From positions 1-33,638 of the forward strand of contig LADZ01000058.1 in NCBI GenBank assembly GCA_000961845.1: a stretch of 33,638 bases of DNA, in the 5' to 3' direction. The position numbers were made by a program, and so were the translations under genes. Below are positions 1 through 30,966 of the stretch, in pieces; within the stretch, counting starts at the first letter, position 1, and each line of letters begins with the position of its first letter. Origin of the DNA: Flavobacteriales bacterium BRH_c54 (GTDB lineage Bacteria > Bacteroidota > Bacteroidia > Flavobacteriales_E > Vicingaceae). The notes under the pieces were generated by a model that was not told the DNA's origin, searched no databases, and worked only from the letters and a program-made list of their open reading frames with translations.

Positions 1-3000
1 AATTCGAATGTTAGTTTAAATGGTTCTGTTACAGGAGCAACAGGCGGAAGTTGGTCAGGAGGATTGGGAACTTTTACACCCAATAACACCACTTTAAATG
101 CAACTTATTCTCCTACTGCCGCAGAAATAGCTGCTGGAACTGTAAACCTTACGTTAACCACAACAGGTAATGGAAACTGTAATGCAGTAACTGATAACAT
201 GACCATTACCATAACCCTAGCTCCAACCGTAAATGCAGGAGTAGATCAAACGGTTTGTGGAAATAATGCATTAGTAACCTTAAATGGATCGGTTACGATA
301 GCTTCAGGCGGAATTTGGTCAGGAGGAACAGGAACATTTACTCCTAACAATACCACACTTAATGCAACTTATATGCCTTCAGCTGCTGAGATAACCGCAG
401 GAACAGTAACACTAACGTTGACCACTACAGGAAATGGTAGTTGTAATTCGGAAACTGATAACATGACCATTACGATAACTCCTGCCCCTCAAGTTAATGC
501 AGGAGCTAACCAAACATTATGTGCGAATAATGCAAGTGCAACACTTTCCGGAGTGGTTTCTGGAGCAACAGGAGGAGTTTGGTCGGGAGGAACTGGCTCA
601 TTTAATCCAAGTGCTACAGCTTTAAATGCTATTTATACTCCTTCTGCAACTGAGATTTCTAATGGTAGTGTAATACTTACATTAACCTCTACAGGAAATG
701 GTTTGTGTAATGCTGTTTCGGACAATGTTCAATTAACATTTACACTGCCACCAACTGCTAATGCAGGAGCAGATCAAACCTTATGTTCTAACAATGCTGC
801 CATATCTTTAAATGGTTCAGTTACTATTGCAACTGGTGGAGTTTGGTCAGGCGGGTTAGGAGTATTTACACCAAATAATAATACGCTAAATGCAACCTAT
901 AACCCAACTGCCGGAGAAATTGCTTCAGGTTCGGTAACACTAACATTGACAACAACCGGAAATGGCAATTGTGCTTCTACATCAGATAATATGACAGTTT
1001 TCTTTACAACATCACCAACTGTTGAAGCTGGAGTAAATCAAACGGTATGCGCTAATAACCCAACAATTACATTAAATGGTTCTATAACAATAGCAACAGG
1101 AGCTGTTTGGACGGGAGGAAGTGGAACATTTACTCCAAACAATAATACCTTAAATGCTACTTATACTCCTTCAGCAACAGAAATTACAGCTGGTTCAGTA
1201 GTACTTTACCTTACTACAACAGGAAATGGAAATTGTTTAGCAGTTACTGATAGTATGACTTTAACAATAACACCAATCCCAACAGCTAATGCGGGTGCTG
1301 ATTTGACATCGTGTAGTAATAACCCTACAGTTACTCTAAATGGTTCCGTAACAGGAGCAACAGGAGGAGTTTGGTCAGGTGGGGCAGGAGTATTTACTCC
1401 AAGTAATACATCATTAGGAGCAACCTATACTCCTTCAGCAGGAGAAATAACAGCAGGTATGGTAACGTTAACATTAACTACAACAGGAAATGGAAATTGT
1501 AATGCTGTATCTGACAATATGACGATTACAATTACTCCACCACCAACAGCCAATGCAGGAGTAGACCAAACAGTGTGTGCCAATAATGCAAATGTTACTT
1601 TAAATGGTTCGGTTAATTTAGCTTCAGGTGGTCAGTGGACAGGTGGATTAGGAATATTTACACCGAGTAACACTGCGTTAAATGCTATCTATACACCAAC
1701 AAGTGGTGAAATAGCCTCCGGAAGTTTAACATTAACGTTAACTACAACAGGAAATGGCAATTGTAATCCGGAAGCTGATCAAATGGTTATTACCTTTACG
1801 CCAGCCCCAACAGTTAGTGCAGGTGTAGATCAATCTGTGTGTGCTAATAACGCAACAGCAACATTAAACGGAGCAGTTAGCATTGCAACTGGAGCTCAAT
1901 GGTCGGGAGGTTTAGGTGCTTTTGCTCCAAATAATACTACTTTAAATGCAACCTATACACCAACTGCTTCAGAAATAGCAAATGGTTCTGTAATGTTATA
2001 CCTAACATCTACAGGAAATGGAAATTGTTTAAGTGTTGTTGATTCTATGTTGTTGACAATAACACCAGAACCTTTAGTTAATGCAGGTCCTGACCAAACA
2101 ATATGTGTAAATAATTTAAGTGTAAATTTAAGTGGTTCTGTTAGTGGACCAACTTCAACAGGTGTTTGGACAACTTCGGGAACAGGTGTTTTTGTTCCTA
2201 GTAATACCAATTTGAATGCGGTTTATCAAGCTAGTGCTCAAGATTCGATAGCAGGAACAGTAACATTAACGTTAACATCAACAAATAATGGCAATTGTAA
2301 TGCTGTTTTTGATGATATGGTAATCACTATTTTACCTGCCGGAGGAGCAAATGCAGGAGCGGATCAATCTGTTTGTGCGAACAATGCTAATGTAAGTTTA
2401 ACCGGAATAATAACAGGAAATGCATCAGGTGGAGTTTGGTCAACAAGTGGAACAGGAGCATTCTCTCCAAACAATACCAATTTAAATGCAACTTATCTTC
2501 CTAGTGCGGCAGATATAGCTAGTGGTTCGGTAACCATTACACTAACTGCAAATAGTTGTAATAATGCAACTGATGATATGATAATAACTATTACACCATC
2601 ACCAGTTGTAAATGCAGGTAATGATACAACAGTTTGTGTTAGTAATTTAAATGTTCCTTTAAATGGAAGTGTATCGGGAGCATCTAACACAGGAAGTTGG
2701 TCAACAAGTGGAACAGGAACATTTACGCCAAACAATACTACGCTTAATGCTACTTATAATGCGAGTGCAGCAGATTCTGTAAATCAAGGGGTTGTTTTAT
2801 ATCTTACAGCAACCAATATTGGAAATTGTGCTCCTGTAACAGATACAGTTGTTATTAACTTGTTTCCAACAGGAACAGCCAATGCAGGAGCGGATCAAAC
2901 GGTTTGTGCTAATAATGCAACAATAACCTTAAATGGTTCAATTACAGGAGGAGCAACAAGTGGACAATGGACTACTTCAGGTTCTGGTACTTTTGTACCT

Positions 3001-4986
3001 TCTGACACTGTTTTAAATGCTACTTATATACCAAGTAGTGCAGATACTGCTGCCGGTTCGGTTAATTTAGTATTGAATGCAACCAATAGTTGTAGTCCGG
3101 CAGCAGATTTTATGGTGCTAACCATTACACCAGCTCCTATTGTTGAAGCAGGACTTGACCAAGTTGTATGTGGAACAAATGCTACGTTTAGTTTAAATGG
3201 CTCTGTTAGTGGTTCAACTACAACAGGAACATGGACAACAAGTGGAACAGGAACTTTCTCAAATAATACTATAATGAACCCAACATATACTGCAAGTGCT
3301 GCAGATATATCTAATGGAGGAGTTACTATTTACTTAACTTCAACCAATAACGGGTTATGTAATCCTGTTATGGATTCATTATTAATTTCAATAACTACGG
3401 GTATTGGTGTTAATGCTGGTCCAGATCAGTCGGTTTGTTTAACAAGTACTCAACTGCAATTGATGGGAGCTGTATTTAATGGTTCTACTACCGGACAATG
3501 GACTACCACCGGAACAGGAACATTCTTTCCACATGATTCTGTTATGACACCAATTTATCAGATTACTTCAGCAGATACAACTGCAGGAACGATAATGTTT
3601 ATTTTAACATCAACCAATAATGGTAACTGTGCAGCAGCATCTGATACTATGATAGTGACATTTGGAAGTGCAGCATACGCTAATGCCGGAGTAGACCAAA
3701 CTATTTGTGCTGACAACTTAAATGTACCATTAACTGGAATTGTTTCAGGAGGTTCTTCTACAGGAATATGGACAACCAATGGAACAGGAGCATTTAATCC
3801 GTCAGATACTGTTTTAATTACTTCTTATATGGCAAGTGCAGCAGATTCTGCAGCAGGTTCTGTAGATATCTATTTAACAACAACAAATAATGATGGAGGT
3901 TGTTCTTCAGGAAATGATACTATAACCATCAACTTTGACTATGTGCCAATTGCTAATGCAGGAACTAATCAAACCATTTGTACTACAGTTGATTCGGTTC
4001 AGTTAAATGGTAATGTACAACATGCTACTGGAGGAACATGGACAACAAATGGAACGGGTACTTTTGTTCCTAATAATACAGATTTGAATGCTGTTTATGT
4101 GATGAGTGCTGCTGATATTACTAATGGAGGTGTTCAGATAATATTAACAACAATTAGTGGAACTACCTGTTCTGATAGAGCGGATACAATGACCATTACG
4201 GTTAATAATCCGTTAACGGTTGATTTCAGCTTTTCCGGTCAATGTGTTGAACAACCAATTAATTTTTATGATAGCACCTTGGTTGCATCAGGAAGTATAT
4301 TAAGTTGGGAATGGAACTTTGGTGATGGTGGGTTTGGATTTGTTCAAAATCCTACACATACTTATCTTTCTGCCGGAAATTATACCATTACCTTAGTGGT
4401 AACAACTACTACAGGCTGTAAAGACAGTATTTCTCAGTCCATCACAATTAATCCTTTACCAATTGCCAATTTTAGTTTTGGACTTCCACCTTTCTATGCC
4501 GGAGTTGATGTAAATATGAATGATCAATCGTCAGGAGCAAGTTCATGGAACTGGGATTTTGGAGATGATTTAGGAACATCAAATATTCAAAACCCTGTAT
4601 ATAATTATACCGTTCCGGGAGTATATGTAATTACTCAATATGTTACGAGTGCTGCTGGTTGTGTTGATTCTACAAGCAAAGAAATTAAAATTGAGGAAGA
4701 TAATATCATTATTTATCCTCCTAATTTCCCTACTGCTTTTACACCTAATGGTGATGGAAATAATGATGTGTTCTTTGTGAGGGGAGGTCCATTTGTGTAT
4801 GCTAATTTCAGAATCTATAATGAGTGGGGAGAAATGATTTTTAGTTCTAATGATGCACAGGATGGTTGGGACGGAACACACAATGGAGAAGAAGTTCCAA
4901 TAGGTACCTATGTTTACACCATTAAAGCGGAAACCATTGATGGGGTTAAATATGATAAATCAGGAAAAATTGCTTTAATAAGATAA
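1..4986 (+). CDS. Giant repeat adhesin with T9SS type B (CHU_C) sorting domain, 5' partial
   Basis: The reading frame is open at base 1, so the N-terminus lies outside the window; a TTG at 64 is only the first internal start-like codon. The visible part (about 1660 residues) has one partial and fifteen full repeats of about 88 residues, each opening like NAGxDQTVCANN and carrying a second Cys near its end (GNGNC). Two PKD domains follow at about 4219-4455 and 4456-4690 (NFGDG and DFGDD motifs). The C-terminus is a gliding-motility-associated CHU_C domain, with FTPNGDGNNDVF, YNEWGEMIF and a final GKIALIR. This domain is known to send proteins through the type IX secretion system to the cell surface. 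The protein is probably a surface adhesin; ligand unknown. A PorP/SprF gene starts 30 bp downstream, a pairing common for type B cargo. Confidence 0.93.
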   Translation, partial: NSNVSLNGSVTGATGGSWSGGLGTFTPNNTTLNATYSPTAAEIAAGTVNLTLTTTGNGNCNAVTDNMTITITLAPTVNAGVDQTVCGNNALVTLNGSVTIASGGIWSGGTGTFTPNNTTLNATYMPSAAEITAGTVTLTLTTTGNGSCNSETDNMTITITPAPQVNAGANQTLCANNASATLSGVVSGATGGVWSGGTGSFNPSATALNAIYTPSATEISNGSVILTLTSTGNGLCNAVSDNVQLTFTLPPTANAGADQTLCSNNAAISLNGSVTIATGGVWSGGLGVFTPNNNTLNATYNPTAGEIASGSVTLTLTTTGNGNCASTSDNMTVFFTTSPTVEAGVNQTVCANNPTITLNGSITIATGAVWTGGSGTFTPNNNTLNATYTPSATEITAGSVVLYLTTTGNGNCLAVTDSMTLTITPIPTANAGADLTSCSNNPTVTLNGSVTGATGGVWSGGAGVFTPSNTSLGATYTPSAGEITAGMVTLTLTTTGNGNCNAVSDNMTITITPPPTANAGVDQTVCANNANVTLNGSVNLASGGQWTGGLGIFTPSNTALNAIYTPTSGEIASGSLTLTLTTTGNGNCNPEADQMVITFTPAPTVSAGVDQSVCANNATATLNGAVSIATGAQWSGGLGAFAPNNTTLNATYTPTASEIANGSVMLYLTSTGNGNCLSVVDSMLLTITPEPLVNAGPDQTICVNNLSVNLSGSVSGPTSTGVWTTSGTGVFVPSNTNLNAVYQASAQDSIAGTVTLTLTSTNNGNCNAVFDDMVITILPAGGANAGADQSVCANNANVSLTGIITGNASGGVWSTSGTGAFSPNNTNLNATYLPSAADIASGSVTITLTANSCNNATDDMIITITPSPVVNAGNDTTVCVSNLNVPLNGSVSGASNTGSWSTSGTGTFTPNNTTLNATYNASAADSVNQGVVLYLTATNIGNCAPVTDTVVINLFPTGTANAGADQTVCANNATITLNGSITGGATSGQWTTSGSGTFVPSDTVLNATYIPSSADTAAGSVNLVLNATNSCSPAADFMVLTITPAPIVEAGLDQVVCGTNATFSLNGSVSGSTTTGTWTTSGTGTFSNNTIMNPTYTASAADISNGGVTIYLTSTNNGLCNPVMDSLLISITTGIGVNAGPDQSVCLTSTQLQLMGAVFNGSTTGQWTTTGTGTFFPHDSVMTPIYQITSADTTAGTIMFILTSTNNGNCAAASDTMIVTFGSAAYANAGVDQTICADNLNVPLTGIVSGGSSTGIWTTNGTGAFNPSDTVLITSYMASAADSAAGSVDIYLTTTNNDGGCSSGNDTITINFDYVPIANAGTNQTICTTVDSVQLNGNVQHATGGTWTTNGTGTFVPNNTDLNAVYVMSAADITNGGVQIILTTISGTTCSDRADTMTITVNNPLTVDFSFSGQCVEQPINFYDSTLVASGSILSWEWNFGDGGFGFVQNPTHTYLSAGNYTITLVVTTTTGCKDSISQSITINPLPIANFSFGLPPFYAGVDVNMNDQSSGASSWNWDFGDDLGTSNIQNPVYNYTVPGVYVITQYVTSAAGCVDSTSKEIKIEEDNIIIYPPNFPTAFTPNGDGNNDVFFVRGGPFVYANFRIYNEWGEMIFSSNDAQDGWDGTHNGEEVPIGTYVYTIKAETIDGVKYDKSGKIALIR
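232..4218 (+). repeat. Tandem 264-bp coding repeats
   Basis: Fifteen full in-frame units start at codons 232, 496, 760, 1024, 1288, 1552, 1816, 2080, 2350, 2611, 2881, 3145, 3412, 3682 and 3955. The first eight steps from 232 to 2080 are each about 264 bp with no indel. Later steps vary from 261 to 273 bp. Units before 2080 carry an ATGGVWSGG-like core; units from 2080 on mostly carry STGxWTTSGTG, so the array has two subfamilies. This is duplication within a gene, not a CRISPR. Confidence 0.9.
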
Positions 4987-7924: not shown

Positions 7925-9001
7925 TTAGTAAAAGTCGGGATTATTAATAAATGTAGAATCAGTTAAGGTGCGTAAAAAAGCTAATAAATCTATTTTGTCG
8001 GATGCAGACAATTGAGCTCCTCCTTGATTAATATGTGTCATTAGGGGATCTACAGTTGCGGATTGTTGCAAACCACTACTGTAAAAATCGATAACTTCTT
8101 CTAACGTTGCAAAACGATTGTCGTGCATATAAGGAGCTGTTAATGCAATGTTTCTCAATGTTGGTGTTCTAAATTTCCCCATATCCGCTGGGTTTACAGT
8201 AACTAAAAACCTTCCTTGGTCAACACCTGAAAAAGAACTGTTTAAGCCATTGTTGTGGAATTCACCATCGGTCCAAAGTGGATTTCCAGCACTTCCGTGG
8301 CAGTGGTAACAATCTCCACGGTTATCGTCCATATAAACAACAAAGCCATTCATTTCAGAAGAAGTTAACGCAGCTTCTCCACGCATGTATTTATCAAATT
8401 TAGCATCTCCGGAAACCATGCTACGCATAAATTGAGCTAGTGCATAGCTGATATATTTCTGTCTTTCTGGAGTGCTTAATTCGGTAATTTTTATACCAAA
8501 TGTTTTCCAAAAAGCTTTTTGATAGAACTCGTTTCTTTTAAATCTATTAAGAATGCTATCGTTATTGGCATTTAAAAAGGGATTGCCTTCAGCTAAATCT
8601 GCAAGAGCAACATCATCCAAATGATGCTCGCCACCATTCCAACCATGATATTGATGCCAACCAATGTTTACATGTGGAAGCACTGCTGTTCCTGTGGGCC
8701 CCATAATAGAAATGGAATAGGATTCTTCTTTTAAATGGCAAGAAGAGCAAGAAAGTCCGTTGGTACTCAATATTTTGTCGTAATATAAACTTTTCCCGAG
8801 AGCAACACCTTCAGCACTCATTTTATTAAATTCCGGATTTCTCATTGGAGGCAAGTAGGTGAGGCTAGGAGGAGACATGTAAGTAGGATGATAATCTCCA
8901 TAAAAATCTTCTTCGGGACTGAAAGGCGTAATGTTCTTTTCTTTTTTACAGCCACTTAATACAATTAGCAGAAGCAATAATAGTTGGATAGATTTTGACA
9001 T
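7925..9001 (-). CDS. Diheme cytochrome c peroxidase/MauG family lipoprotein
   Basis: 358 residues. A lipoprotein signal ends in the lipobox LSGC (lipidated C18). Two c-type heme motifs are present: C85-SSC-H89 and C231-YHC-H235. The sequence FRTPTLRNIALTAPYMHDNRFATLEEVIDFY is typical of the bacterial diheme peroxidase/MauG family. Members reduce H2O2 with electrons from a small cytochrome or oxidise protein substrates; which applies here cannot be told. It starts 9 bp after the small cytochrome lipoprotein gene, a likely electron partner, and both follow one FNR-type promoter. A role in peroxide defence at the oxic-anoxic switch is inferred. Confidence 0.9.
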   Translation of the reverse strand: MSKSIQLLLLLLIVLSGCKKEKNITPFSPEEDFYGDYHPTYMSPPSLTYLPPMRNPEFNKMSAEGVALGKSLYYDKILSTNGLSCSSCHLKEESYSISIMGPTGTAVLPHVNIGWHQYHGWNGGEHHLDDVALADLAEGNPFLNANNDSILNRFKRNEFYQKAFWKTFGIKITELSTPERQKYISYALAQFMRSMVSGDAKFDKYMRGEAALTSSEMNGFVVYMDDNRGDCYHCHGSAGNPLWTDGEFHNNGLNSSFSGVDQGRFLVTVNPADMGKFRTPTLRNIALTAPYMHDNRFATLEEVIDFYSSGLQQSATVDPLMTHINQGGAQLSASDKIDLLAFLRTLTDSTFINNPDFY

Positions 9002-9010
9002 GGGTTTTTA

Positions 9011-9379
9011 TTATTTAGGATAATACAGGTTTATCCATTTGGTTATTAATTTTTTTTCTTTGTTTAACAGTGGATTTGAAGGGGGCATCAATCGTGGATT
9101 TTCATCAAAAATAGTAGAAACCAGTGTGCCGTTTTCAGCCTCAAATTTTACTTCTTCATAATTGGTTAGATAAGGCAATATGTTTAATGTTTGTGGATGA
9201 TGACATCCACCGCAATTTTGGTCTATTATAGGTTTAATGTTTTTGTTGTAAGTAATGTTTTCATCAGCTATAGTATTTGTATTGGTTGGAGTGGTTTCAA
9301 CGGGTTCAATAGCATTTTTTACACATCCTGAGCATACACTTATAATTAAAACGGATAATATGGTAGTGGTTGTCTTCAT
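9011..9379 (-). CDS. Small monoheme cytochrome c lipoprotein
   Basis: 122 residues from the start chosen at 9379; a longer frame reaches 9421 but would put 14 charged residues before the signal peptide and would extend past the predicted transcription start. The signal peptide leads to SVCSGC (likely lipidated C19). One heme motif, C56-GGC-H60, lies in a short domain containing LMPPSNPLLNKEKKLITKWI, the usual C-terminal part of small PSCyt/cytochrome c modules. It is the first gene of a pair with the diheme peroxidase (9-bp gap) and is probably its electron donor or a shared periplasmic carrier (inference). Confidence 0.82.
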   Translation of the reverse strand: MKTTTTILSVLIISVCSGCVKNAIEPVETTPTNTNTIADENITYNKNIKPIIDQNCGGCHHPQTLNILPYLTNYEEVKFEAENGTLVSTIFDENPRLMPPSNPLLNKEKKLITKWINLYYPK

Positions 9380-9402
9380 TAGTTTGTTATCAACTTGTCT
9401 AA

Positions 9403-9445
9403 CAAAGTTAATTTTAAACAATTTTAGAAGTTATGATGTGCATCA
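9403..9445 (-). promoter_or_regulatory. FNR-type promoter of the cytochrome/peroxidase pair
   Basis: TGATGTGCATCA (9434-9445) lies inside a longer inverted repeat, TATGATGTGCATCATA. After 23 nt comes a perfect -7 element TAACTTTG (9410-9403). The predicted transcription start is near 9398, giving a leader of about 19 nt before the ATG at 9379. This supports that start over the longer frame. Confidence 0.75.
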
Positions 9446-9459
9446 TACTTTGAGTAACC

Positions 9460-9548
9460 AAAAAGGCCGCAACCTGAGAGGTGTGCGACCTTTTGACCTA
9501 ACTAAAAAACTACATGTTTTTGTAAACTACTTACGGTTACTCTAAAAC
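9460..9548 (-). ncRNA. Candidate FNR-controlled small RNA (~90 nt)
   Basis: An FNR-type promoter (9553-9595) points into this stretch and predicts a start near 9548. The only ATG in the transcript is followed at once by TAG, so it appears non-coding. It ends in the strong hairpin and U-run at 9461-9494. The layout of regulated promoter, short non-coding body and intrinsic terminator is that of a bacterial sRNA. Alternatives are a 3' UTR product of the porin mRNA or a distal promoter for the cytochrome genes, although the terminator argues against the latter. Confidence 0.4.
9461..9494 (-). terminator. Strong intrinsic terminator
   Basis: On the minus strand the arms AAAAGGTCGCA and TGCGGCCTTTT pair over 11 bp with one U-G pair. 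After a 1-nt bulge four more pairs (ACCT/AGGT) close a 3-nt loop. The RNA 3' side continues as CCTTTTTGG. It lies downstream of the porin stop (9612) and just upstream of the cytochrome promoter, insulating the two. It also has four Ts on the plus strand. Confidence 0.8.
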
Positions 9549-9552
9549 TAAG

Positions 9553-9595
9553 CAAATGTAGCTATGAAAATTCTTTTTGTTTATGATGTTTATCA
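9553..9595 (-). promoter_or_regulatory. FNR-type promoter with no downstream ORF before a terminator
   Basis: TGATGTTTATCA (9584-9595) sits in an 18-bp palindrome, TTATGATGTTTATCATAA (9581-9598), the most extended in the window. After 23 nt comes a perfect -7 element TACATTTG (9560-9553). It lies right after the porin stop codon rather than upstream of an ORF. It is proposed to drive the small RNA candidate at 9460-9548. Confidence 0.65.
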
Positions 9596-9611
9596 TAAGA
9601 CGAATATTTTT

Positions 9612-11078
9612 TTAATTAAGGGTTGGAGTTTCTTTTTTCTCTTCTCCAGTAATAAATTTTGGTTTAATGGTTAACATTAACCAACCCCATCCATTATGAG
9701 TACCTTCAACTCCTCTACCATTAGCATCTGTAACGCCTTTTAAATAAGATAAGGTTTCAGTGTTTATCAATACAGAATATCCACCTTTAACATCTACACC
9801 TTTAGAAAGTTTAAAACCTAATGTAAAATCTATTTCTGTTCCTAAATAGCTATCCATTGCTTGTAATTGGTCAATTTCAGAAAGCGGAGTTCCTGCCGCA
9901 ATTGCAGCATTATTGTCTAATTGAATTTTGTAGCCATCACGTACTTCTTCGGCAGCTAAGAAATAGTGAACATCAGCTCCTAACCAAAACTTTTTATGCG
10001 TGTATTTTAAGCCAAAAAAAGCATCATTTAAACCAACAGAATTAATATGGTTGCCTACATAGAAGTAATCCATGTAGCCATTAAATTTGTGGTTAGTACC
10101 AAAATGAGGCGTGAATGAATGGTTTACTGTTCTGTAGCTAAAAGAGGTGTCTGTTTGACTTTGACCACTGAGGTGCTCAAAACCTGCATGTACAGCAAAT
10201 TTTTCTGATATTTTATAGTTGGCTTCCAATCTAACATTTATAGCTTGAATTTCTCTGTTATATTCGCCTTTTACATCAGTAAAAACAGTATTTCTATTGC
10301 CATCAATACCCATTTGGTAGTAAAAAGCACCTGCTAATTGAAATTTATCTTTTTTGTAAACCAATCTGGTTCCTGCAGTTTGACTATAATTATCTTTATA
10401 GTAAACAGTAGCAGTTCCCGGAGCGACACCTGAACTATCATAATCTAATTGCTCTTTGCCTAAATTTAAAAAGAGAATGCTGGCATTAAAATTATCAGAT
10501 AGTTTATGGTTTAACCACATGTATTGCATGGCTTTGTATGTGCCAAATTGAGCATCTGTACCGCTAAGTGCTGCTTTATCCTGATTGTAAGCAACACCAA
10601 AATCTATTTTTGTTTTTTCATTTTTAAATTTTAATAAAGCCGCATCATGAGCTCTTGATTGCTGTGCCCAACCTAAATCCCCGAAAATACGATGATCATC
10701 ATAAGCAATTTCTTGACGACCAAATTTTAACGACCATTTTTCATTTAATAATGCTTCTACCCAAGCTTCATGAACAGCAATGTAAGCTCCGTTATTATTT
10801 TGTTGAGCAGCTGTTCCTACTGTTTGTGGTTGGCTACCCCATACACGAATATCTTGAACGGTAATTTTAAAAATGTAGCCATCTGTTTTATAGCCAAAAT
10901 TTAATCTTGTTCTTTGATCAACAAACGCAGCAGGGCTTTGTGTAGAATCGAGTATGTTTTTAAAACCATTTCGGTATTCAAATCTTGGCCTTATTTCGCC
11001 ATCTAGCGTAAACTGAGCGATTGTAGGTAGGCTTAATAAAATACCCAATCCCAGTAATAATTTTTTTATAGTTTCCAT
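9612..11078 (-). CDS. Outer-membrane porin, alginate-export-like
   Basis: 488 residues from the start chosen at 11078, where METIKKLLLGLGILLSLPTIAQ gives a clean signal peptide; an in-frame start at 11144 would add 22 residues before it. The mature protein has alternating strands with many aromatic residues (FGYKTDGYIFKITVQDIRVWG, WSLKFGRQEIAYDDHRIFGD, DNFNASILFLNLG), like the alginate-export/OprD-like beta barrels of Bacteroidota. Substrate is unknown. It follows two nitrate/nitrite transporter genes (99-bp gap) and has its own FNR-type promoter, so passage of nitrate or nitrite across the outer membrane is a reasonable inference. A strong terminator follows. Confidence 0.78.
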   Translation of the reverse strand: METIKKLLLGLGILLSLPTIAQFTLDGEIRPRFEYRNGFKNILDSTQSPAAFVDQRTRLNFGYKTDGYIFKITVQDIRVWGSQPQTVGTAAQQNNNGAYIAVHEAWVEALLNEKWSLKFGRQEIAYDDHRIFGDLGWAQQSRAHDAALLKFKNEKTKIDFGVAYNQDKAALSGTDAQFGTYKAMQYMWLNHKLSDNFNASILFLNLGKEQLDYDSSGVAPGTATVYYKDNYSQTAGTRLVYKKDKFQLAGAFYYQMGIDGNRNTVFTDVKGEYNREIQAINVRLEANYKISEKFAVHAGFEHLSGQSQTDTSFSYRTVNHSFTPHFGTNHKFNGYMDYFYVGNHINSVGLNDAFFGLKYTHKKFWLGADVHYFLAAEEVRDGYKIQLDNNAAIAAGTPLSEIDQLQAMDSYLGTEIDFTLGFKLSKGVDVKGGYSVLINTETLSYLKGVTDANGRGVEGTHNGWGWLMLTIKPKFITGEEKKETPTLN

Positions 11079-11120
11079 GATATATAATGTTTTATAGATT
11101 TCTCTTTTTATTTTACTCAA

Positions 11121-14467: not shown

Positions 14468-14477
14468 GTATTGTATA

Positions 14478-14489
14478 TGATTGTAATCA
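14478..14489. promoter_or_regulatory. Extra FNR-type palindrome between divergent genes
   Basis: TGATTGTAATCA is a perfect TGATnnnnATCA site inside an 18-bp inverted repeat (14475-14492). No -7 element lies at the usual spacing on either strand. Its centre is 22 bp from the narK site and 63 bp from the 14541 site, both near whole helical turns. It is probably an auxiliary site for one or both divergent promoters. Confidence 0.5.
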
Positions 14490-14540
14490 TATAAATAGCT
14501 ATTAATCAAGGTAAATATTCACTTAGTGTATTCTGCTATA

Positions 14541-14583
14541 TGATTTATATCATTTCAGGAATAAAGTGATTAAGGTACTTTTG
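14541..14583 (+). promoter_or_regulatory. FNR-type promoter of the unknown gene at 14700
   Basis: TGATTTATATCA (14541-14552) is a perfect site, followed after 23 nt by a perfect -7 element TACTTTTG (14576-14583). This is the only plus-strand copy of the arrangement. Predicted start near 14588, leaving a leader of about 110 nt before the ATG at 14700. Confidence 0.75.
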
Positions 14584-14699: not shown

Positions 14700-15161
14700 A
14701 TGAAAGCATTAGAACCTAATACCGTTGAAAGTAGTGAATTAGTTGAACAAACTTTTAATTTTTGGTTTTCTGATAATGAACACATTCGTTCACCATTTCC
14801 GGAATACATTCGTCCTATTTTAAAAGAAAATGCGGTAGATGCATTTTTTAAGTGGGTAAGTAACCTCAATCCTAAAGCTAAAGAAGAAGTAAATGATGAG
14901 ATGATAGCTGAAAAGTTTGAAGAAATAATTTTTGAGACAGCTATGGGCTTGGTACATACTGAAGATGAAAAAATTACCATTCAGTATCCTTTTTTACCAA
15001 GAGTGGATGATGAGATTAGAAATAATGAGGAGGATATACAGATAAGTAAAATTATAGACAGAACATTAACAAAAGAAGGAGATACTCAATTTTTAAAAGT
15101 GAAATTAGAAAATGTGGGTGACCAACAAGTTTGGGAAACTAAATTTGAGTTACCGTTGTAG
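14700..15161 (+). CDS. Unrecognised acidic cytoplasmic protein, FNR-type promoter
   Basis: 153 residues, not recognised. No signal peptide, membrane segment, Cys motif or heme motif is visible; it has no cysteine at all. The N-terminal half looks helical (ELVEQTFNFWFSDNEHIRSP, EMIAEKFEEIIFETAMG). The C-terminal part (TQFLKVKLENVGDQQVWETK) looks beta-rich. It is transcribed divergently from the narK pair and has one of the best FNR-type promoters in the window, so a role in anaerobic nitrate or nitrite metabolism is likely, but the function is unknown. Downstream is a short GC-rich hairpin (15182-15196), then a convergent gene. Confidence 0.75.
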   Translation: MKALEPNTVESSELVEQTFNFWFSDNEHIRSPFPEYIRPILKENAVDAFFKWVSNLNPKAKEEVNDEMIAEKFEEIIFETAMGLVHTEDEKITIQYPFLPRVDDEIRNNEEDIQISKIIDRTLTKEGDTQFLKVKLENVGDQQVWETKFELPL

Positions 15162-28177: not shown

Positions 28178-28214
28178 GATTTTTTTAGTTAAGTGGTTAT
28201 AAAAATAGTTTCTA

Positions 28215-28256
28215 GAAAAAACAGGGGGCTTAAAATTATGAGCTTTTCGCCCCCTG
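28215..28256 (-). terminator. Intrinsic terminator or attenuator between norB and norQ
   Basis: On the minus strand CAGGGGGC and GCCCCCTG form a perfect 8-bp GC-rich stem (28256-28249 and 28229-28222), followed directly by six Ts and TCTAG. It lies 28 bp after the norB stop. It should stop most transcripts after norCB and let less reach norQDEF. Confidence 0.82.
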
Positions 28257-28283
28257 ATTCCCATCAATCAATAACAAAATTTA

Positions 28284-30255: not shown

Positions 30256-30966
30256 CTAAATATTTACTATCTCCTTTAGTTTTTTAAGGTTGATAATTTT
30301 TATTTTTTTATTGTCTGTTTCCAGAATGTTGTCCTCTTTTAAATCAGCTAAAATTTTTGTTACCTGATTAGAGTTTAATCCTACTAATTCGGCAATATCT
30401 TGTCTGCTTAGTTCATGAGCATGATTAATTTCATTTTCTTTATTAAGCCCATAAGCAGCGATAATGGTTATTAGTGCTTTAGCAACTTTTTCTCTAACGT
30501 TAAAAATGGCGAGGTCTCTAAGTTTGTTTTCCCCGTGATTAAGTTCATTAGCAAAATAAAGCATGAGGTTAAAAGTAAGTTCAGGAGTAGATTTTAATAG
30601 TTTAAAGAAAAAAGGTTTATCAAAACTACAAATCATGGTATCGGTTATAGAAGTTGCTGAAATACTAAACTTTTCGGCATCGGATAAACCTCTATGTCCA
30701 AAAATTTCACCATCAGAAATTAGGCGTATAATTTGGTCTTTACCAAAAGCTCCTTTTTTAAAAACTTTTACCCTTCCAGACTGAATGAAATTAATGCTGT
30801 CAACAAAATTTCCTTCCATAAAAATTAATTGGTTTTTAGTGTATCTATTGACGAATTTGTTTTCATGTATTCTAACAGATTGTTCAATATTATCTAAACA
30901 ATGCTTTTTAATGAAACAATTGGTGTTTTCACAATCTATACAATTAATTTTATTGTTATGCCTCAT
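30256..30966 (-). CDS. CRP/FNR family regulator with FNR-like Fe-S cysteines
   Basis: 236 residues: cyclic-nucleotide-type sensor domain (about 40-150) and winged helix (about 155-236). Five cysteines suggest a [4Fe-4S] sensor: C9-x2-C12-x4-C17-x5-C23 at the N-terminus and C113, which aligns with C122 of E. coli FNR. The recognition helix reads LSRQDIAELVGLNSNQVTKI; residues matching E. coli FNR E209, S212 and R213 are N200, T203 and K204. It is the likely regulator of the FNR-type sites in this window. It is last in the ric-Rrf2-cytochrome operon and lies just upstream of norC. Confidence 0.88.
   Translation of the reverse strand: MRHNNKINCIDCENTNCFIKKHCLDNIEQSVRIHENKFVNRYTKNQLIFMEGNFVDSINFIQSGRVKVFKKGAFGKDQIIRLISDGEIFGHRGLSDAEKFSISATSITDTMICSFDKPFFFKLLKSTPELTFNLMLYFANELNHGENKLRDLAIFNVREKVAKALITIIAAYGLNKENEINHAHELSRQDIAELVGLNSNQVTKILADLKEDNILETDNKKIKIINLKKLKEIVNI

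Follow-up and report, generated by a model that had tools for sequence, protein, structure and literature searches.

The roughly 90 nt that follow the porin gene on the minus strand of this contig are probably a base-pairing small RNA, which in ancestry would be derived from a 3′ untranslated region (3′ UTR) like the NarS RNA of Salmonella and which would have gained an FNR-type promoter of its own in the clade of the source genome. The original prediction had placed here an anaerobically induced small RNA downstream of the porin. A small RNA transcribed from an FNR-type promoter still appears to be the best reading, but it had been overlooked that the same unit is also the 3′ UTR and terminator of the porin mRNA. 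We propose that the ancestral form was the 3′ end of the porin mRNA of the nitrate locus (in one genome also that of the narK2 mRNA), in which a conserved UUAGUUAGGU preceded an intrinsic terminator. The sequence UUAGUUAGGU would pair with ACCUAACUAA just 5′ of start codons, most often that of narK2 beside the porin, and this pairing would hinder ribosome entry. With the FNR-type promoter gained by the 3′ UTR in the source clade, synthesis of the RNA could become independent of the porin mRNA. The best sites in this clade would now be those before norQ (NO reductase activation) and before a membrane phosphatase gene. We infer that the RNA is processed, pairs in the cell and represses, the last being assumed from the location of the sites in the ribosome-binding region. 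Our guess as to the effect of the own promoter is that more RNA is made without oxygen and that norQ or the phosphatase gene is held back.

Genomic Setting

The window (the whole stretch of 33,638 nt analysed) constitutes contig 63 in a genome of 2.9 Mb and carries on its minus strand a denitrification cluster. The cluster comprises moaA, genes for a hemerythrin-domain protein, a MauG-type cytochrome, a small cytochrome-like lipoprotein and an alginate-export-like porin, genes for two NarK-family transporters and a copper nitrite reductase, norD, norQ, norB and norC, and genes for a Crp/FNR regulator, an Rrf2 regulator and an iron-sulfur repair protein. The names of moaA and of the nor genes are our assignment from sequence and gene order, and the family matches for the porin, NarK and Crp/FNR proteins lie below the curated cut-offs. 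Among the named relatives of the porin is that of Vicingus, and on this ground the family of the genomes compared is here called Vicingaceae. Positions 1–4986 are taken up by a single repeat-rich open reading frame of more than 1600 amino acids, which extends past the contig start. For comparison, 46 genomes of the Vicingaceae were used, to which labels such as G001 refer. The coordinates of the features discussed are given in Table 1.

Table 1. Features of the window related to the candidate small RNA, its promoter and its predicted target sites.
Feature	Position	Strand	Remarks
Candidate small RNA, also porin 3′ UTR	9461..9549	-	start inferred near 9548-9549
Conserved motif TTAGTTAGGT, proposed seed	9496..9505	-	TTAGTTA invariant in 12 aligned elements
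Terminator hairpin, 15 pairs, 3-nt loop, five-U end	9461..9494	-	8/9 consensus pairs with two-sided change
FNR-type dyad TTATGAT-AAAC-ATCATAA	9581..9598	-	shortly after porin stop codon; paired changes in G001
−7 element TACATTTG, Bacteroidota type (TAnnTTTG)	9553..9560	-	22 nt exactly from 14-nt dyad core
Second FNR-type dyad, cytochrome-gene promoter	9432..9447	-	same 22-nt gap
−7 element TAACTTTG of cytochrome promoter	9403..9410	-	gap 22
Porin, Alginate_exp-like (slightly under curated cut-off)	9612..11081	-	element would form the end of its mRNA
Weak pairing stretch AACTAAAA before narK2, source genome	12796..12803	-	eighth among 29 starts
Proposed target site ACTTAACTAAAAAA before norQ start	28181..28194	-	14 contiguous pairs, one G-U
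Crp/FNR-family regulator, candidate activator	30256..30966	-	FNR-like N-terminal cysteines; matches under curated cut-offs

A Probable FNR-Type Promoter Behind the Porin Gene

The porin stop codon (9614–9612, minus strand) is followed by the FNR-type dyad, the −7 element and the roughly 90 nt of the candidate RNA. The dyad had been described as an 18-bp palindrome and as the most extended one of the window. There is indeed an FNR-like dyad, but it consists of two 7-bp arms around a 4-nt spacer rather than of 18 unbroken base pairs, and arms of 8 or 9 bp were found at eight other places of the window by a script that accepts only perfect arms and spacers of at most 8 nt. The longest of these inverted repeats, at 14474–14493, is FNR-like and lies in the narK1 leader. 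Beside it, at 14540–14583 on the plus strand, is a third promoter of the kind described below, directed at a plus-strand gene (14700–15161).

By themselves, 7-bp arms with a 4-nt spacer are not above chance: there are 7 in the window, as compared with 0 to 8 in 20 mononucleotide shuffles. The combination of such a dyad with TAnnTTTG after 22 nt is above chance. This promoter grammar (gap 22 only) is matched 99 times in the 46 family genomes and twice by the reversed pattern, which served as control; in the source genome the numbers are 6 and 0. Three of these six matches are in the window and include the promoter at 9598–9553 and that of the cytochrome genes, which had been correctly predicted to have a promoter of their own at 9403–9445 (found at about 9446–9403, with the same 22-nt gap). 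The element preceding the candidate RNA thus has the features of a Bacteroidota promoter with an FNR-type site, namely TAnnTTTG at a fixed distance from the dyad, and the −7 element at 9560–9553 on the minus strand is as perfect as had been claimed. The 22-nt gap is found also in the G001 and G005 copies of the promoter, and in G001 the dyad is altered on both arms (ATGAC..GTCAT) with retention of symmetry. Because of the specificity of the grammar and of these symmetry-keeping paired changes, a functional FNR-type promoter at 9598–9553 is likely. It is restricted to three close species and is not found in G002 and G003, which belong to the same genus. As to which protein binds the dyad and in response to which signal, the regulator encoded at 30256–30966 is a candidate. 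Its cysteines are FNR-like (CIDCENTNCFIKKHC), and by reading its sequence the recognition helix appears to differ from that of FNR.

Predicted Transcript Body and Terminator

The RNA would start near 9548–9549. In agreement with the claim that these 90 nt contain no usable open reading frame, the sole ATG on the transcribed strand is directly followed by TAG. The hairpin at the end (9494–9461) has the predicted 15 pairs, 3-nt loop and U-run and in addition a 1-nt bulge. It is not the single strongest of the window, as had been stated, since it ties with the norB-norQ hairpin near 28218, both having a fold of −18.6. The latter, terminator-like hairpin (28218–28260, minus strand) lies just before the proposed norQ target site. 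A consensus scan for terminators listed none within positions 8500–11000. The 105-nt strand from 9549 to 9445 folds with −33 kcal/mol, as compared with −16.4 (sd 3.2) for shuffled sequences, 0 of 200 of which were as good, and part of this fold energy comes from an 8-bp outer stem that uses sequence past the U-run. This stem (GAGTAACC/GGTTACTC) was considered as a conserved feature and rejected, as it is disrupted in G005 and, in part, also in G001.

In the 5′ part plus motif, 3 of 54 aligned sites differ in G001 and 2 of 54 in G005 (with 3 and 1 gap columns besides). At four-fold sites of the porin gene, 36 of 163 and 42 of 171 differ. Since the body differs far less than these porin sites, it is by this comparison constrained within the promoter-bearing clade. 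With the 4227 families of Rfam 15 no match in the window reached the gathering score, and assignment to the FnrS family by a match to a described RNA family of Rfam 15 was thus not obtained. A repeat or mobile element was considered and rejected, the genome containing a single strong match, and the plasmid collection gave no match.

Conservation of Motif and Terminator

A porin match is present in 20 family genomes, in 14 of which the porin is a close one (at least 57% identity). The 3′ UTR can be read in 13 of these 14, that of G044 ending with its contig. In 12 of the 13 readable close-porin loci, G017 being the exception, TTAGTTA[AG] is found just upstream of the terminator. There are ten more distant or second porins in the family, and the motif occurs in none of the nine that are readable. 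A set of 76 porin loci contained 12 of the readable close set, 59 other readable ones (37 + 22, two of the 22 with an uncertain stop) and five unreadable ones; the motif occurs in 1 of the 59, 156 nt past the stop, which was taken as chance. In G002 and G003, where dyad and −7 element are both missing, TTAGTTAG and a terminator come a short distance after the porin stop. The hairpins of the 12 aligned elements are wholly different between genera, TTAGTTA being unchanged, and two-sided changes are seen in 8 of 9 consensus hairpin pairs, for an alignment that is rough in the hairpin. It should be noted that openness of the seed, as judged by folding, is uneven: it is low in G016 and partly so in G005 and G045.

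A covariance model was built from the 12 elements and used to search the family (E < 0.001, training set set aside). There were two new matches. One is a further copy in G021, which lies close behind narK2 and is independent of the porin; the other is a relic in G004. The G021 copy would act on its own mRNA. In G004 (locus L318, contig C191, 1480–1555) the porin appears to have been deleted save for its last few bases, and the adjacent element is decayed. This locus was considered as a case of porin-independent conservation and rejected, since comparison with G002 points to a decayed remnant adjoining what is left of the lost porin. Of the weaker matches of the model, the four inspected, in G005 (C34), G001 (C6), G029 (C8) and G007 (C12), look like ordinary terminators and were discarded. 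Also rejected was a general terminator motif: with at most two mismatches TTAGTTAGGTNAAAAG is rarer in the source genome than its reversed form (23 vs 42).

The original prediction was to be refuted if relatives kept only a terminator as part of the porin mRNA. By this test the own promoter fails outside the three species. Motif and terminator are conserved across genera in the absence of the promoter, mostly in the porin 3′ UTR and once, in G021, independently of the porin. Since the motif is conserved upstream of diverged hairpins, more than a terminator is kept.

Predicted Target Sites

The complement ACCTAACTAA was sought at most 24 nt upstream of ATG. In the three promoter-bearing genomes (C or T allowed at the third place) it was found 12, 16 and 10 times and the reversed control 10, 12 and 18 times, which is no excess, and in most of the 46 genomes the raw counts before ATG were not above the reversed control. 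Because the reversed control has another word content, the sites were classified by location instead. Of 94 complement matches, 4 that were antisense to elements and 6 that repeated a site already counted were excluded, so that 84 remained, and a true 5′ UTR was defined as lying outside open reading frames of at least 100 amino acids and before one of at least 80. Of the sites in the 13 element-bearing genomes (G044 counted among them, its 3′ UTR unseen), 20 of 37 are in true 5′ UTRs, as compared with 7 of 47 in the 33 others (Fisher p 0.00015). After hand-collapsing of orthologues on both sides the numbers are 13 of 26 and 6 of 45 (p 0.001; other collapsings p 0.002 to 0.004). Without G044 they are 17 of 32 for the element-bearing genomes (p 0.0004), and with G044 put with the others p is 0.0015. 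Permuted 10-mers of the same letters (14 stretches) fall in 5′ UTRs in 54 of 1164 cases and those with two TAA in 9 of 38, the comparison with the complement giving p 0.00007 (collapsed 0.003). By location, therefore, complements are in excess in the 5′ UTRs of element-carrying genomes.

The site recurring most often is that in the narK2 leader, between narK1 and narK2, which is present in G002, G003, G043 (two in tandem), G044 and G045. As a start predicted to pair with the element, narK2 ranks best in G001, G002, G003 and G043, whereas it comes second in G005 and in G045 and only eighth of 29 in the source genome. In G021, where narK2 has CTAACTAAA, it is third of eight for one copy of the element and seventh for the other. 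Complements are found also before NhaD in G016, G044 and G019 (74% complete, no porin match) and before ccoN in G044. In the source clade they stand before norQ, a SpoIIE-type membrane phosphatase gene and a SulP transporter gene. The labels NhaD, ccoN and SpoIIE are names that we take these genes to have; profile matches to a SiaA-type phosphatase and to SulP are both below the cut-off.

The norQ site is present in all three promoter-bearing species. In the source genome the predicted pairing amounts to −17.1 kcal/mol for norQ and −18.3 kcal/mol for the phosphatase, with 1 and 0 of 155 background starts as good, values that describe rather than test the pairing because the genes were picked for their match. 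Both sites are absent from the relatives without promoter that were compared, which is expected if the RNA moved to other targets, but the three species represent one clade. The sites, each from one clade and chosen for its match, may thus reflect shared ancestry or choice. On the porin-side stretches of G016, G018, G024 and G025 no complement site was seen. Further 5′-UTR sites belong to genes without evident link to respiration in G005, G002 (within a repeat), G021, G024 and others; these are presumably fabF (G005), a gene for a sigma-54-type regulator (G002) and genes for secreted proteins (G021, G024). In G042, which has no porin match, the gene of an FNR-family-like regulator (L386) carries ACCTAACTAA in its leader.

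Alternative Explanations

The motif might be bound by a protein or nuclease and thereby determine mRNA stability. In that case the complements in 5′ UTRs would be coincidental or would represent a leader motif typical of genomes rich in A. The raw complement counts, which do not exceed the reversed control, fit this explanation, as do the seven leaders with a complement in genomes without the element, among them those of NhaD in G019 and of the FNR-type gene in G042. We nevertheless regard it as unlikely, because the share of complements located in 5′ UTRs differs with the presence of the element and from that of composition-matched 10-mers, and because the site is carried by narK2 genes of two unlike kinds, those of G043 and G045 being different from the others. 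It is also quite improbable that the motif acts only in cis, folding back on the narK2 ribosome site of a long mRNA or protecting its end, with no free small RNA formed. Between narK2 and porin no terminator-like hairpin was found in the source genome, G002, G003 and G044, and there are only negligible hairpins in G001 and G005, so that at least in G002, G003 and G044 motif and complement could share a transcript (the 3′ UTR of G044 being unseen). In G043 and G045, however, the match is kept despite a strong terminator-like hairpin in this interval (−13.9 and −16.1), which makes a shared narK2-porin transcript unlikely there and for which reason self-control of one narK-porin operon was rejected as the rule. 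Complements at unlinked genes (NhaD, ccoN, SpoIIE-type phosphatase, SulP) and the own promoter in the source clade, by which the motif would be made separately from narK2, also speak against action in cis. Depending on whether the hairpin is present, the 3′ end of the porin transcript could in some species act on the mRNA to which it belongs, and in others it would act on a separate one.

Very improbable, in our view, is that 9598–9553 serves only as an additional, distal promoter for the cytochrome genes, with read-through at the porin terminator and without the function of a separate RNA. Strand and promoter type are the same as those of the cytochrome promoter, but a hairpin that is joint strongest in the window intervenes, the cytochrome genes already possess a promoter with the same spacing, and the body of the RNA is conserved.

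Relation to Known Small RNAs

The preferred reading, a small RNA derived from a 3′ UTR, has its closest analogues probably in RNAs such as NarS rather than in FnrS, with which the element had originally been compared. FnrS is a stand-alone gene, whereas the element doubles as the 3′ UTR of a protein gene and has no Rfam match. What holds of the comparison is the FNR-type promoter grammar and the predicted short RNA, FnrS being described in the passages on it in PMC8139620 as an FNR-controlled short RNA made without oxygen. According to the passages on NarS in PMC8139620 and PMC9438474, this RNA of Salmonella comes from the 3′ end of the FNR-controlled narK mRNA, is processed from it by RNase E, binds Hfq and acts on another gene of nitrogen-oxide handling, nirC. 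Such a position behind a nitrate transporter gene is found in G021, where a copy follows narK2; the element of the source genome follows the porin that adjoins narK1-narK2. In contrast to NarS as described there, the element belongs to another phylum, has an own promoter in the source clade, and has as its commonest predicted match narK2 itself and in the source clade norQ. OppZ of Vibrio cholerae originates at the end of an operon, two cistrons of which flank its pairing site, as outlined in PMC9438474 (cf. PMC7398697). The narK2 site between narK1 and narK2 resembles this arrangement of the autoregulatory 3′-UTR RNAs OppZ and CarZ; the difference is that pairing of the element is only predicted and that a shared narK2-porin transcript is possible in G002 and G003 but split by a hairpin in G043 and G045.

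Small RNAs of the same phylum include FopS and GibS of Bacteroides, FopS having a single-stranded stretch before its intrinsic terminator (relevant parts of PMC11697453), and Rfp18 of Flavobacterium (relevant parts of PMC9723704). As far as these sources treat the matter, they are tied to bile salts, polysaccharides or proteases rather than to oxygen or nitrate, and Bacteroides is said to be without classical RNA chaperones (PMC11697453). In the sections concerned, the review PMC8139620 describes small RNAs that control nitrate respiration in Proteobacteria and Firmicutes; the word Bacteroidetes has 0 occurrences in its main text. In the open-access literature no report was found of a small RNA of nitrate respiration in Bacteroidota, nor of the element.

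Significance

We consider it possible, as a tentative extension, that a 3′-UTR RNA controlling the adjacent nitrate transporter arose in the Vicingaceae independently of NarS and OppZ, that in one clade its terminator region acquired an FNR-type promoter, and that what had been a by-product of the porin mRNA thereby became a free-standing anaerobic regulator and moved to genes of NO-reductase maturation and signalling, with earlier and decayed stages in sister species. If true, a new RNA regulator would have evolved independently in Bacteroidota for the control of anaerobic respiration, and the clade would display stages on the way from 3′ UTR to small RNA gene: the element without promoter, with promoter, and as a relic after loss of the host gene. 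The 22-nt grammar of FNR dyad and TAnnTTTG could be used to map the regulon across the Vicingaceae. If the small-RNA reading is true, one short RNA would tie nitrate transport to NO reduction, with possible effects on the release of nitrite, NO and N2O.
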